This document shows, piece after piece, positions 24,731 to 32,626 of a DNA stretch of 64,000 bases. Each line of letters starts with the position of its first letter. Within the stretch, counting starts at the first letter, position 1. The stretch lies in contig CAJXJR010000003.1 of the NCBI GenBank assembly GCA_913055155.1, positions 124,001 through 188,000 of the forward strand. The letters run 5' to 3'. Below the pieces are notes generated by a model that was not told where the DNA came from, did not search any database, and saw only the letters and a program-made list of their open reading frames with translations. A program made the position numbers and the translations under genes. The stretch comes from an uncultured Erythrobacter sp. (GTDB taxonomy: Bacteria > Pseudomonadota > Alphaproteobacteria > Sphingomonadales > Sphingomonadaceae).

Positions 24731-25381
24731 ATGCGTAAGACGATTCTGGCCGTTTCCGGCGCTGCAGCCCTGGGCGCAGTTGCCCTAACCGGGCTCAACG
24801 CCCAAGGCGGCCCTGCTGCAGAGGAAATGGACACCAGCGCCATTTCATCGGGCAGCTATTCCACCGATCCGGCCCACTCGCTGGTCGTGTGGCGCCTCGA
24901 TCACCTGGGCTTCAACGACTATGTCGGCATCTTCGGCGATGTTACCGGCACGATGAACCTGGACACCGAAAACCTGGCCAATTCCAGCGTCGACGTGACC
25001 ATCCCTATCGCCTCTGTCACCGTTGCCAGCGAAGGCCTGCGCGAACACCTGCTGCGCGCCGCCGGCAACGAAACCAACGTGCCCGATTTCTTCGGCCCGG
25101 AACCTGCCCCCGCGCGGTTCGTGTCCACCGCCGTGCACCAGACGGGCGATCACACCGCACACATCATGGGTGACCTGACTTTCAACGGCGTCACCAACCC
25201 GGTCACCATCCAGGCCGAACTGGCCGGTATGGGCACCAACATGATGAGCCAGAAGGAAACCGTGGGTTTCCACGGCACCACCACCATCACCCGTTCGGAA
25301 TGGAACCTGGGCTGGGGCATCCCCTTCGGCCTGGGCGACGAGGTGGAACTCGACATCACGGTGGCCTTCGAAAAGGACTGA
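24731..25381 (+). CDS. YceI-family periplasmic protein
   Basis: 216 residues. A signal peptide (MRKTILAVSGAAALGAVALTGLNA) is followed by the lipocalin-like YceI beta-barrel (YSTDPAHSLVVWRLDHLGFN, GDVTGTMNLD, VDVTIPIASVTV, GDLTFNGVTNPV, EVELDITVAFEKD). YceI proteins bind isoprenoid chains such as polyprenols. The gene sits between ilvC and leuA without an obvious metabolic link. It has its own structured 5' region and a strong terminator. Confidence 0.9.
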   Translation: MRKTILAVSGAAALGAVALTGLNAQGGPAAEEMDTSAISSGSYSTDPAHSLVVWRLDHLGFNDYVGIFGDVTGTMNLDTENLANSSVDVTIPIASVTVASEGLREHLLRAAGNETNVPDFFGPEPAPARFVSTAVHQTGDHTAHIMGDLTFNGVTNPVTIQAELAGMGTNMMSQKETVGFHGTTTITRSEWNLGWGIPFGLGDEVELDITVAFEKD

Positions 25382-25410: not shown

Positions 25411-25453
25411 GGGGGTGCGCGGCCTGCAGGGGCGGCGCACCCCCATTTGTTTC
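25411..25453 (+). terminator. rho-independent terminator after the YceI gene
   Basis: Ten-base-pair stem GGGGGTGCGC (25411-25420) / GCGCACCCCC (25435-25444) with a 14-base GC-rich loop, followed by the T-rich ATTTGTTTC. Confidence 0.85.
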
Positions 25454-25489
25454 TGGACCTGTTACCCAATCGTCCCTACATGGGTTCGC

Positions 25490-25537
25490 ATGACGCAGGC
25501 CTACAGCCTATTCCTGCTTCGACTTACACGCCCTTAG
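25490..25537 (+). CDS. putative leucine-rich leader peptide of leuA
   Basis: A 15-codon frame, ATG to TAG, reading MTQAYSLFLLRLTRP. Four of its residues are leucine (codons CTA, CTG, CTT, CTT), clustered at positions 7-12. It lies 117 bases before leuA, and its stop codon falls inside the 5' arm of a long stem. This is the composition and placement expected of a leucine attenuation peptide. It has no clear ribosome site. An overlapping frame from ATG 25480 (MGSHDAGLQP...) is the alternative reading of this stretch. Confidence 0.55.
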   Translation: MTQAYSLFLLRLTRP

Positions 25538-25579
25538 GCGTGCATTTGTCCTGCGCGAAGCAGGGCTTCGCCTAAGGGC
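25513..25579 (+). promoter_or_regulatory. leuA leader RNA with mutually exclusive structures
   Basis: Two structures compete. Structure one is an 11-bp perfect stem, GCCCTTAGGCG (25530-25540) with CGCCTAAGGGC (25569-25579), enclosing a small hairpin CCTGC (25550-25554) / GCAGG (25560-25564). Structure two pairs CCTGCTTCG (25513-25521), which lies in the Leu codons of the leader peptide, with CGAAGCAGG (25556-25564), a perfect 9-bp match. A ribosome stalled on the Leu codons would cover the 5' partner of structure two. No U-run follows the long stem, so it is not a standard intrinsic terminator. Confidence 0.6.
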
Positions 25580-25653
25580 CGATCCACCACAGGTTGATAA
25601 ATTCGCAAGCGGCGTTACCCGCGTGCGTCAAAGTCGAAGAGAGCTGCTTAGCA

Positions 25654-27351
25654 ATGCCCATGTTGTCCGATCCCTCGGTCAAGTACCGTCCCTTCCCGCA
25701 AGTAAACTTGCCTGACCGGCAATGGCCCTCGCGCACGATTGCCGCCCCGCCCCGCTGGCTTTCCACCGACCTGCGCGACGGCAACCAGTCGATCATCGAT
25801 CCGATGGACCGCGCCAAGAAGACGCGCTTCTTCGACCTGCTGGTGGAAGTGGGCGTGAAGGAGATCGAAGTCGGCTTTCCCGCTGCCGGGCAGACCGAGT
25901 TCGACTTCATCTCGTGGCTGGTGCAGTCCGAACGCGTGCCCGAAGACGTGGTGGTGCAAGTGCTCACCCAGTCGCGCGAGGACCTTATCAAGCGCAGCTT
26001 CGAAAGCCTCGAAGGCGCACATTCGGCCATCGTCCACCTCTACAACGCCGTCAGCCCCGCCTGGCGCGACATCGTCTTCCGCATGAGCAAGGACGAAGTG
26101 AAGCAGGTCGCCGTGAAAGGCGCTCAGTTGCTGGTGGACGAGGCGGCGAAGCGCCCGAACACAAAGTGGCAGTTCGAATACTCGCCGGAAACTTTCTCTA
26201 CCGCGGAACTGGATTTCAGCCTGGAGGTTTGCGAGGCGGTGATGAATGTCGTCGGCCCGACGAAGGACTGGCCGATCATCCTCAACCTGCCCGCCACGGT
26301 AGAGGCAGCCACGCCCAACATCTACGCCGACCAGATCGAGTATTTCTGTCGCAACCTGCCCAACCGGGAAGCTGCGGTGATCTCGCTCCACACCCATAAC
26401 GACCGCGGCACCGGCGTCGCTGCCGCCGAACTGGGCCTGATGGCCGGCGCCGACCGCGTCGAAGGCTGCCTGTTCGGCAATGGCGAGCGCACCGGCAACT
26501 GCTGCCTGGTGACCGTGGCGCTGAACATGTACACCCAAGGCGTCGATCCCGGCCTCGACTTTTCCGATATCGACAAGGTGATCGAGACGGTGGAGTACTG
26601 CAACGAACTGCCCGTCCACCAGCGCCACCCCTATGGCGGCGAACTGGTGTTCACGGCCTTCTCCGGCAGCCACCAGGATGCCATCAAGAAAGGCTTCGAG
26701 GCGCACGAGCAGCAGAACGACCAGCAGTGGCGCGTGCCCTACCTGCCGATCGATCCGGCAGACCTTGGCCGCGATTACGAAGCGGTGATCCGCGTCAACT
26801 CGCAGTCCGGCAAGGGCGGCTTTGCCTGGGTGTTGCAGCAGACGCAGGGGCTGAAACTGCCCAAGAAGCTGCAAGCGCACTTTTCCAAGCACGTGCAGTT
26901 CATGGCTGACGATACCGGGCGCGAACTCAACGCCGACGACATCTGGGAATGCTTCAGGCAGACCTATTACGTCAAGGTGGAGAACCGGCAGTTCACGCTG
27001 GTCGACTATGACGAGAGCCGCACCGCGGACGGCGACCGCGTGTTCACCGGCACGATCCTGGTCGATGGCGAGGAACAGCGGGTTTCGGGTCGCGGCAAGG
27101 GCCTGATTTCCAGCGTGCTGGCCACCATTCGCGATGCCTATGGCCTCGATCTTGAAGTGGTCGACTATTCCGAGCACGCGCTGGGCACCGGCGTGGATGC
27201 ACGTGCGGCCGCCTATATCGAATGGGCCTTGCCCGACGGCCGCAGCGGCTGGGGCGTGGGCATCGACGAGGACGTGGCCACCGCCAGCGTGCGCGCGATC
27301 ATCTCTGCCGCCAACGGCGCTTCGCACGGGCCGGGAACGCAGCGGTTCTGA
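25654..27351 (+). CDS. leuA: 2-isopropylmalate synthase
   Basis: Condenses 2-oxoisovalerate with acetyl-CoA, the first committed step of leucine synthesis. At 565 residues it is the longer LeuA type. The TIM barrel starts at about 40 (RWLSTDLRDGNQSIIDPMD, with the metal-binding Asp in TDLRDGNQ). HTHNDRGTGVAAAELGLMAGADRVEGCLFGNGERTGN supplies the His metal ligands, and the C-terminal allosteric LeuA domain (about 420-560) includes GRGKGLISSVLATIRDA. ATG 25654 is used, with a second ATG two codons on; GAAGAGAG at 25636-25643 is the likely ribosome site. The leader peptide region upstream suggests leucine control. Confidence 0.96.
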   Translation: MPMLSDPSVKYRPFPQVNLPDRQWPSRTIAAPPRWLSTDLRDGNQSIIDPMDRAKKTRFFDLLVEVGVKEIEVGFPAAGQTEFDFISWLVQSERVPEDVVVQVLTQSREDLIKRSFESLEGAHSAIVHLYNAVSPAWRDIVFRMSKDEVKQVAVKGAQLLVDEAAKRPNTKWQFEYSPETFSTAELDFSLEVCEAVMNVVGPTKDWPIILNLPATVEAATPNIYADQIEYFCRNLPNREAAVISLHTHNDRGTGVAAAELGLMAGADRVEGCLFGNGERTGNCCLVTVALNMYTQGVDPGLDFSDIDKVIETVEYCNELPVHQRHPYGGELVFTAFSGSHQDAIKKGFEAHEQQNDQQWRVPYLPIDPADLGRDYEAVIRVNSQSGKGGFAWVLQQTQGLKLPKKLQAHFSKHVQFMADDTGRELNADDIWECFRQTYYVKVENRQFTLVDYDESRTADGDRVFTGTILVDGEEQRVSGRGKGLISSVLATIRDAYGLDLEVVDYSEHALGTGVDARAAAYIEWALPDGRSGWGVGIDEDVATASVRAIISAANGASHGPGTQRF

Positions 27352-32419: not shown

Positions 32420-32494
32420 GGCCCCTTCGTCTAGCGGTTAGGACGCGGCCCTTTCACGGCTGAAACACGGGTTCGATTCCCGTAGGGGTCACCA
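32420..32494 (+). tRNA. tRNA-Glu (anticodon TTC), copy 1
   Basis: 75 bases including the encoded CCA. The acceptor stem GGCCCCT pairs with AGGGGTC (one G-U). The D-arm has AGCGGTTAGG, the anticodon loop CTTTCAC gives TTC, and the T-arm ACGGG/CCCGT holds TTCGATT. Confidence 0.95.
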
Positions 32495-32551: not shown

Positions 32552-32626
32552 GGCCCCTTCGTCTAGCGGTCAGGACGCGGCCCTTTCACGGCTGAAACAC
32601 GGGTTCGATTCCCGTAGGGGTCACCA
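32552..32626 (+). tRNA. tRNA-Glu (anticodon TTC), copy 2
   Basis: Identical to copy 1 except for one D-loop base (AGCGGTCAGG instead of AGCGGTTAGG), again with encoded CCA. The 57-base spacer between the copies has no repeat of its own, so the pair is a simple tandem duplication and probably one transcript. Confidence 0.95.

Follow-up and report, generated by a model that had tools for sequence, protein, structure and literature searches.

The element directly upstream of leuA in the window, the whole stretch of 64,000 nucleotides analyzed here, is almost certainly a leucine leader of this gene, and it most likely acts as a leucine gauge. Comparison of related sequences reveals a short leader frame, its conserved leucine codons, stems that covary, and a link to leuA. 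On balance, we favor the view that this is a leucine-sensing leader conserved in alphaproteobacteria, in which ribosome stalling at the Leu codons would reset the RNA folds and raise leuA expression.

Genomic locus and comparison set

The gene order in the window, as read from the translations, is presumably ilvB, ilvN, ilvC, a YceI-like gene, and then leuA. The leader ORF and the stems sit between the YceI-like gene (end at 25381) and leuA (25654), and a check of the sequence found all of them at the positions given in a first-pass annotation of this DNA. By LeuA identity, the closest named genera are Aurantiacibacter, Alteraurantiacibacter and other Erythrobacteraceae, and two metagenome or uncultured records are closer. 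The predicted fold of positions 25480-25660 has an energy of -74.7 kcal/mol (z -3.9), which is better than 200 of 200 dinucleotide shuffles. Elsewhere in the window, Rfam identifies two neighboring tRNA genes on the + strand (32420-32491 and 32552-32623). The features considered below are as follows.

25454..25482, + strand: weak predicted promoter (7/12 consensus matches) with a -35-like TGGACC (25454-25459), a 17-nt spacer and a -10-like TACATG (25477-25482)
25490..25537, + strand: leader ORF MTQAYSLFLLRLTRP, 15 codons with the stop TAG at 25535-25537, read from the sequence; its ATG is kept in the family
25517..25525, + strand: segment A, CTT CGA CTT (Leu-Arg-Leu), the invariant codon core according to codon counts
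25527..25542, + strand: hairpin H1, CACGCC-CTTA-GGCGTG, followed by the T-rich tail CATTTGTCC; from covariation and unprompted prediction
25530..25540, + strand: 5' arm of stem P1, GCCCTTAGGCG, containing the leader stop codon; from conservation and covariation
25550..25564, + strand: inner hairpin in the P1 loop, CCTGC-GCGAA-GCAGG; from the sequence and the predicted fold of the window
25569..25579, + strand: 3' arm of stem P1, CGCCTAAGGGC; from conservation and covariation
25631..25639, + strand: segment D, AAGTCGAAG, beside the leuA ribosome site and complementary to segment A; wobble covariation in part of the family
25654..27351, + strand: leuA, 2-isopropylmalate synthase of the TIGR00970 type (809.7 bits, cut-off 697.4)

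The family set comprised 80 named contigs (the best 80 of 594 candidates), 30 loci, 40 distant regions and locus L151, the distant regions being the 40 fetched out of 62 remaining family places with a LeuA identity of at least 60%. From the 151 family loci (L001-L151) we kept 146 distinct leaders, leaving out L008 (a run of N) and the duplicates L083, L089, L100 and L115; L152 is the same place as L122. Two alignments were used: A1 with 40 of the 146 leaders, picked by a script for diversity, and A2 with 38 sequences, consisting of 28 of 40 additionally fetched loci and 10 family loci, picked by hand. These 40 additional loci were passed to a stem script, which handled 36 of them; L226, L227 and L231 have no CGACT(T/A) string and L229 has another spacing. 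Among the 61 loci from the rest of the class, L184 and L207 are truncated by contig ends and L158 has leuA coding sequence upstream.

Leader ORF and its codons

The leader opens with an in-frame ATG in 143 of the 146 family leaders and with GTG or TTG in the remaining three; the two alternative frames have an ATG that stays open across the core in 7/146 and 22/146 leaders. The length is 15 or 16 codons in 120/143, and Leu makes up about 28% of the leader residues. The window's own leader has four Leu codons (CTA at 25508, CTG at 25514, CTT at 25517 and CTT at 25523). Rare codons are expected at sensing positions, and CTT or CTA constitute 396 of the 622 leader Leu codons (64%) compared with 9% in 80 leuA genes; CGA likewise constitutes 37% of the leader Arg codons vs 2% in leuA genes. 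The last Leu codon is CTT or CTA in all 143 leaders and is preceded by CGA in 142 of them, and the aligned leaders do not vary in the distance between the Leu codon preceding CGA and the P1 arm. As read from the sequence, the leader is a short ORF in which codons for the regulated amino acid are overrepresented.

Two subtypes account for most of the family. In the subtype of the window (n = 59) the P1 arm holds the TAG stop and the peptide typically ends in LRLTRP, whereas in the second one, termed RPWA (n = 78), the arm holds TGG and the typical end is LRL(T/I/M)RPWA. The remaining 9 leaders have other codons at the TAG/TGG position.

Stem P1 at the end of the leader

The arms GCCCTTAGGCG and CGCCTAAGGGC are perfectly complementary over 11 bp. 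The core of P1, eight pairs, forms in 146 of the 146 leaders, with 1166 of 1168 cells occupied by standard pairs, and the TAG/TGG difference between the subtypes is compensated in the stem by an A-U pair in one and a G-C pair in the other. RNAalifold found P1 unprompted in the 40 diverse leaders, with two-sided changes in 5 of the 8 pairs. In these leaders 29 cells are changed on both sides, as compared with 9.4 in shuffles, and sliding the partner strand abolishes the signal. With other families added (38 sequences), the two-sided cells number 51 vs 17.5, a level reached in 0/500 shuffles; two of the five measures in this test, pairs changed (60/500) and pair types (333/500), are not above shuffles. 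On a tree of 106 LeuA proteins we counted 9 same-branch co-changes in P1, all to standard pairs, where about 0.3 are expected. Three pairs contribute them, co-changing 2, 3 and 4 times (0.13, 0.04 and 0.10 expected), and the other five pairs have no same-branch co-change on this tree. Among the 36 further loci handled by the script, 33 have a P1 score of at least 14 out of 20; those below are L232, the loop of which is too short for the script, and L237 and L251, which have another leader form. Unanchored RNAalifold recovers P1 on the 78 RPWA leaders and, for the window's subtype (59 leaders), H1 alone. P1 was therefore judged on anchored stems and on A1 and A2, because its 3' arm was misaligned in the unanchored run on the 59 leaders.

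These comparisons bear out much of the first-pass annotation, which had described a 15-codon frame with four Leu codons and an 11-bp stem around its TAG and had proposed checking the covariation of the stem and the conservation of the codons in relatives. The frame is exact and conserved far beyond chance, its Leu codons are kept in the family leaders, and the stem is perfect and goes equally far beyond chance in conservation and covariation, the latter in alignments, against shuffles and on the LeuA tree.

Two roles for P1 were considered and rejected. As a terminator, it lacks the necessary tail: fewer than five T follow in the next 8 nt in 139/146 leaders, 137/146 have no TTTTT anywhere between P1 and leuA, and the absence of a T-run after the main stem, already pointed out for the window, holds after 25579. 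As for an anti-Shine-Dalgarno strand, the 3' arm and the loop end are no more complementary to the leuA ribosome site than expected. In the folding model, the openness of that site stays almost the same (0.45 vs 0.43) when a terminating ribosome masks the P1 arm.

A rival hairpin sharing the P1 arm

The arms of H1 (25527-25532 and 25537-25542) share the 5' arm of P1, and the two folds are mutually exclusive. RNAalifold on the 59 leaders of the window's subtype predicts exactly this hairpin. Its outer variable pair, which lies outside P1, is Watson-Crick in 51/59 of these leaders where 27 are expected from permutations that ignore relatedness; it is G-C in 28, A-T in 20, C-G in 2 and T-A in 1, and G-T in a further 6. 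On the LeuA tree the outer pair is standard in 32 of 33 leaders of the subtype, toggling through G-T.

Other measures of H1 are weaker. In the RPWA subtype, where the 3' base of the outer pair is the first base of the stop codon, this pair has no covariation (17/78, with 16.4 expected from the same kind of permutation). The mixed alignment of 40 leaders has only 2 two-sided pairs in H1, vs 1.5 in shuffles (274/500 reach this value). Same-branch co-changes are borderline on the whole LeuA tree (4 vs 1.6, p 0.059), a test in which a control column pair is also above chance (13 vs 5.7), and within the subtype their number on the tree is that of the best control (3 and 3). With weak two-sided and tree results, what speaks for H1 is the fidelity of its pairing in one subtype. 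The end of the leader thus carries two mutually exclusive, covarying folds, P1 strongly so and H1 in one subtype and more weakly on the tree, and we consider it quite likely that they are alternative folds in the window's subtype. The short T-rich tail after H1 at 25527-25542 had escaped the first-pass annotation.

A candidate pairing between Leu codons and the leuA ribosome site

The first-pass annotation had described a switchable leader RNA before leuA and had named a particular alternative pairing for it, a 9-base match between CCTGCTTCG (25513-25521) and CGAAGCAGG (25556-25564). The leucine leader with rival folds has held up, and the named pairing has not: the match is present in the window, but relatives do not keep it. 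Complementarity between the corresponding parts is at most 6 bases in the other 58 leaders of the subtype and reaches 7 in 1/78 of the other subtype; it is probably a chance match, and we rejected it as an alternative fold. The rival folds that relatives do back are H1 and, in part of the family, a pairing between the Leu codons and the region of the leuA ribosome site.

In this second pairing, CTTCGACTT (25517-25525, segment A) is fully complementary to AAGTCGAAG (segment D), and the helix is part of the predicted fold of the window. A downstream GTCG is present in 47/146 family leaders (53 sites). By permutations that ignore relatedness, the Leu wobble base matches segment D in 32 of these 53 sites vs 19.4 expected, and in 24/32 vs 12.3 expected for AGTCG sites alone. 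Outside the family the wobble signal is absent (3/6 vs 3.0, and 5/19 vs 3.6); we rejected the A:D pairing as a universal mechanism, and it would thus be a family-limited part of the mechanism.

Complementarity and modelled folding were also compared between the subtypes. In that of the window, the leader segment whose complementarity to the leuA ribosome site is most in excess lies over the Leu codons (mean z -0.75), whereas in the RPWA subtype the strongest segment is further upstream and weaker (-0.55). Masking a stalled ribosome raises the modelled openness of the ribosome site from 0.43 to 0.54 across 58 leaders of the window's subtype, and from 0.35 to 0.55 in the window itself; the rise exceeds 0.1 in 28/58, compared with 19% for shuffled leaders. 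For the RPWA subtype the mean rise is 0.047 vs 0.033 in the control, with more than 0.1 in 30/76 vs 20%. By eye, two more features recur about 20-60 nt before leuA in L004, L011, L094 and similar loci, all with the leader type of the window: another GC-rich hairpin containing a CTTGCCG string, and a GCGATAAGGC-like string near the ribosome site.

Predicted promoter and transcript start

When 143 leaders are aligned on their ATG, weak columns resembling a -35 element (-37 to -33) and a -10 element (-14 to -12) emerge, including T 57% at -36, T 50% or G 33% at -35, A 45% at -33 and A 62% at -12, together with C 73% at -1. No Shine-Dalgarno-like columns precede the ATG in these 143 leaders. Sequence features thus predict that transcription starts at or beside the leader ATG. 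With a predicted start at about 25489-25490, the leader mRNA would therefore be leaderless. A stricter promoter scan of the window listed no promoter. According to the first-pass annotation, a start downstream of 25540 would speak against the leader; the one predicted from these weak promoter signals coincides with the leader ATG.

By eye, GGGGGTGCGC...GCGCACCCCC followed by ATTTGTTT at 25411-25452, directly before the predicted promoter, is a probable terminator of the YceI-like gene. It is absent from the output of the terminator scan, and its loop is longer than the limit of the scan.

Specificity and taxonomic range of the leader

A covariance model, R1, was built from the leader and P1 and applied with a threshold of E 0.001 or better. 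It has one match apiece in 124 of 149 family genomes, all of them at leuA: 91 lie before an enzyme at least 60% identical to the LeuA of the window (the first type) and 33 before one that is 26-31% identical (the second type), one of the latter with a 22-nt overlap into the beginning of the leuA hit. Of the 92 genomes with a first-type leuA, 91 have the match there, and the exception, G052, has it before a second-type gene; this placement excludes G135, a C-terminal fragment located at the edge of a contig. The 25 family genomes without a match include 12 without a LeuA hit and 13 with a hit that is weak in most of them; some leuA genes therefore have no recognizable leader. In G052 (L243, L251) both leuA families are present and differ in the form of their leaders, as though gene and leader had traveled together.

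Matches were also found in 27 of 240 genomes sampled from the class, 24 of which belong to other families, all 24 being before a second-type leuA (19 from the comparison of places and 5 from a separate check). A phylum sample of 299 genomes added 8 new matches, all before leuA; among the matches listed, none is outside the class, the number of non-class genomes in this sample not being shown. In total, 156 of 156 matches are at leuA (124 in the family and 32 in the class and phylum samples, where the places were compared with leuA by eye). The leader is carried by two leuA families, TIGR00970 and TIGR00973, the second type being TIGR00973 by the curated cut-off in 2 tested proteins and in 9/13 genomes. 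Leaders of other families mostly end in LRLxRP or LRLxGP before the stop, and their P1 is mostly CCCCTGARCG/YGYTCAGGGG.

The first-type leuA genes of other families are preceded by yet another leader form: a CTNCGACT site is found upstream in 38/61 loci, and 10 of the 61 have two small ORFs in series with such sites. Folds after the CTNCGACT sites average z -1.6, often with a stop codon in the hairpin loop. Loci L153, L156, L160, L161, L165, L173 and L175-L178 have two serial small ORFs before a TIGR00970-like leuA, both with CTNCGACTT; the first often ends in LRLTxPxL and the second in LRLIGGxRA or similar. Compared with these, the one leader present in the window's family looks as though the two ORFs had been fused. 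No Rfam 15 family matched the leader at the gathering threshold in the window and 20 relatives, and a permissive scan of the leader region gave only far sub-threshold matches outside the leader.

Proposed mechanism and alternative explanations

The front edge of a ribosome lies about 16 nt past the first base of its P-site codon. In the mechanism that we propose, the ribosome would start at the leader AUG of the predicted leaderless mRNA and read the rare Leu codons, at which it would stall if too little Leu-tRNA is charged. Halted on the Leu codon that precedes CGA, it would cover the 5' part of H1 and just free the P1 arm, so that P1 would form and H1 would not. The stalled ribosome would also hold segment A, which could then no longer pair with segment D near the leuA ribosome site, and leuA would be translated. 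When leucine is plentiful, the ribosome would reach the stop codon inside the shared arm of P1 and H1 and leave; segment A could then pair with segment D, H1 or P1 would refold, and initiation at leuA would fall. An empty leader would adopt H1, and a leader with a ribosome stalled next to the arm would adopt P1; the Leu codons themselves, when free of ribosomes, would be the strand that covers the leuA start. The stalling, the order of folding and the role of translation are what we infer from the comparison, and we consider it an even call whether translation is the main output.

The output could instead be transcriptional, with H1 and its T-rich tail serving as a weak intrinsic terminator or as a pause hairpin melted by the leader ribosome, like the first trpL hairpin, which is an RNA polymerase pause hairpin, or with Rho terminating in the gap before leuA once the ribosome has left. 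The terminator scan does select H1 in the window (1 found, 0.3 in shuffles), and a T-rich tail (at least 4 T in an 8-nt window) follows it in 22/59 leaders of the window's subtype and in 10/13 such leaders before a second-type leuA, as compared with 7% of control windows. However, this tail is present in just 2/78 RPWA leaders and contains at least 5 T in just 6/59 leaders of the window's subtype, and 137/146 family leaders are devoid of TTTTT downstream of P1. Moreover, the polymerase is already beyond H1 when it transcribes the 3' arm of P1, and P1 would form too late to oppose termination there. As for Rho, the gap between P1 and leuA in the RPWA subtype is C-rich and G-poor (C/G 1.86 vs 1.04 upstream of the promoter) and could be a Rho-loading stretch, but C is not in excess in the gap of the window itself (C/G 0.95). 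Taken together, we regard transcription attenuation as rather unlikely.

Stalling could also be a property of the LRLxRP peptide itself rather than of leucine decoding alone, with leucine or some other signal as the trigger, which would agree with the conserved Leu-Arg-Leu-x-x-Pro end in the family and in many other leaders of the class; we nevertheless find nascent-peptide arrest improbable, since the constraint acts at the codon level (CGA in 142/143 despite six Arg codons, and Leu as rare CTT/CTA), RP and RPWA ends coexist, and by eye the class leaders L164, L167 and L171 have Leu runs without Arg. A binding site for a regulatory protein, with the leader peptide incidental, is a decidedly improbable reading: it could account for how very strongly CTNCGACTT and the CCC/GGG end of P1 are conserved, and excerpts of PMC1262725 contain such a proposal for the actinobacterial LEU element, yet the frame, the start codon and the Leu content are kept together, and the stop position and the stem change in a compensated manner. 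Finally, single-sequence 9-base complementarities do arise by chance, as with CCTGCTTCG and CGAAGCAGG, but the covariation and the 156/156 matches at leuA leave practically no room for chance features or the tail of an upstream gene without a role in leuA control, an explanation already refuted by the comparison.

Relation to known leader systems

Classical ilv/leu attenuators are ribosome-mediated and combine a leader peptide rich in codons of the end product with alternative stems that share one arm. The window leader has the same kind of peptide and likewise alternative stems with a common arm, and by analogy it would work like a ribosome-mediated leader. Unlike them, it has no U-tract terminator after the main stem, and leuA alone stands directly behind it; lacking the terminator, it is therefore not a classical transcription attenuator. 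In alphaproteobacteria, excerpts of the literature describe the ilvBN leader of Caulobacter as an example of a classical ribosome-mediated attenuator (PMC4117421) and mention an ilvB leader peptide (PMC1273637). The trpL leader of Sinorhizobium meliloti, in the excerpted account of PMC10117765, is leaderless, its mRNA beginning at its own AUG, as predicted for the leader of the window, which is also an alphaproteobacterial leader peptide. The two differ in that trpL has Trp codons and belongs to a trp attenuator, whereas the leader described here is for leucine and has no terminator after P1.

The literature searched contained no alphaproteobacterial leuA leader, an earlier mention in comparative attenuation papers being possible, and no account of leuA control in alphaproteobacteria. 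We tentatively suggest that the leader belongs to an unnamed, widespread alphaproteobacterial type, leaderless and without a U-tract terminator, with rare Leu-Arg-Leu codons at a fixed spacing from a covarying stop-codon stem, serving two families of 2-isopropylmalate synthase, acting on leuA translation, and forming a two-ORF relay in other orders. That it precedes leuA in most genomes sampled from one large family, and also in further families of its class, makes it a directly testable regulator of leucine synthesis, and a clean case for ribosome sensing without a U-tract terminator, perhaps on a leaderless mRNA. The alignment and the model could seed a new RNA family.

Compared by description, the nearest known system in plan appears to be the LEU element before leuA in Actinobacteria (Seliverstov et al. 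2005; PMC1262725), for which excerpts of that paper report mutations in the leuA leader of S. coelicolor with some effect, inconsistent with classical attenuation. In both systems a leader peptide with Leu codons precedes leuA, with alternative folds and no obvious terminator, as far as the excerpts describe the LEU element (PMC1262725). The run of Leu codons in the LEU element pairs with the Shine-Dalgarno region of leuA (excerpts of PMC1262725), whereas the corresponding pairing of the window leader is supported in part of one family. The LEU element is described there as a pseudoknot on a base stem (PMC1262725), in contrast to the core found here, which consists of P1 at the stop codon, H1 in one subtype, and the near-invariant CTNCGACTT.
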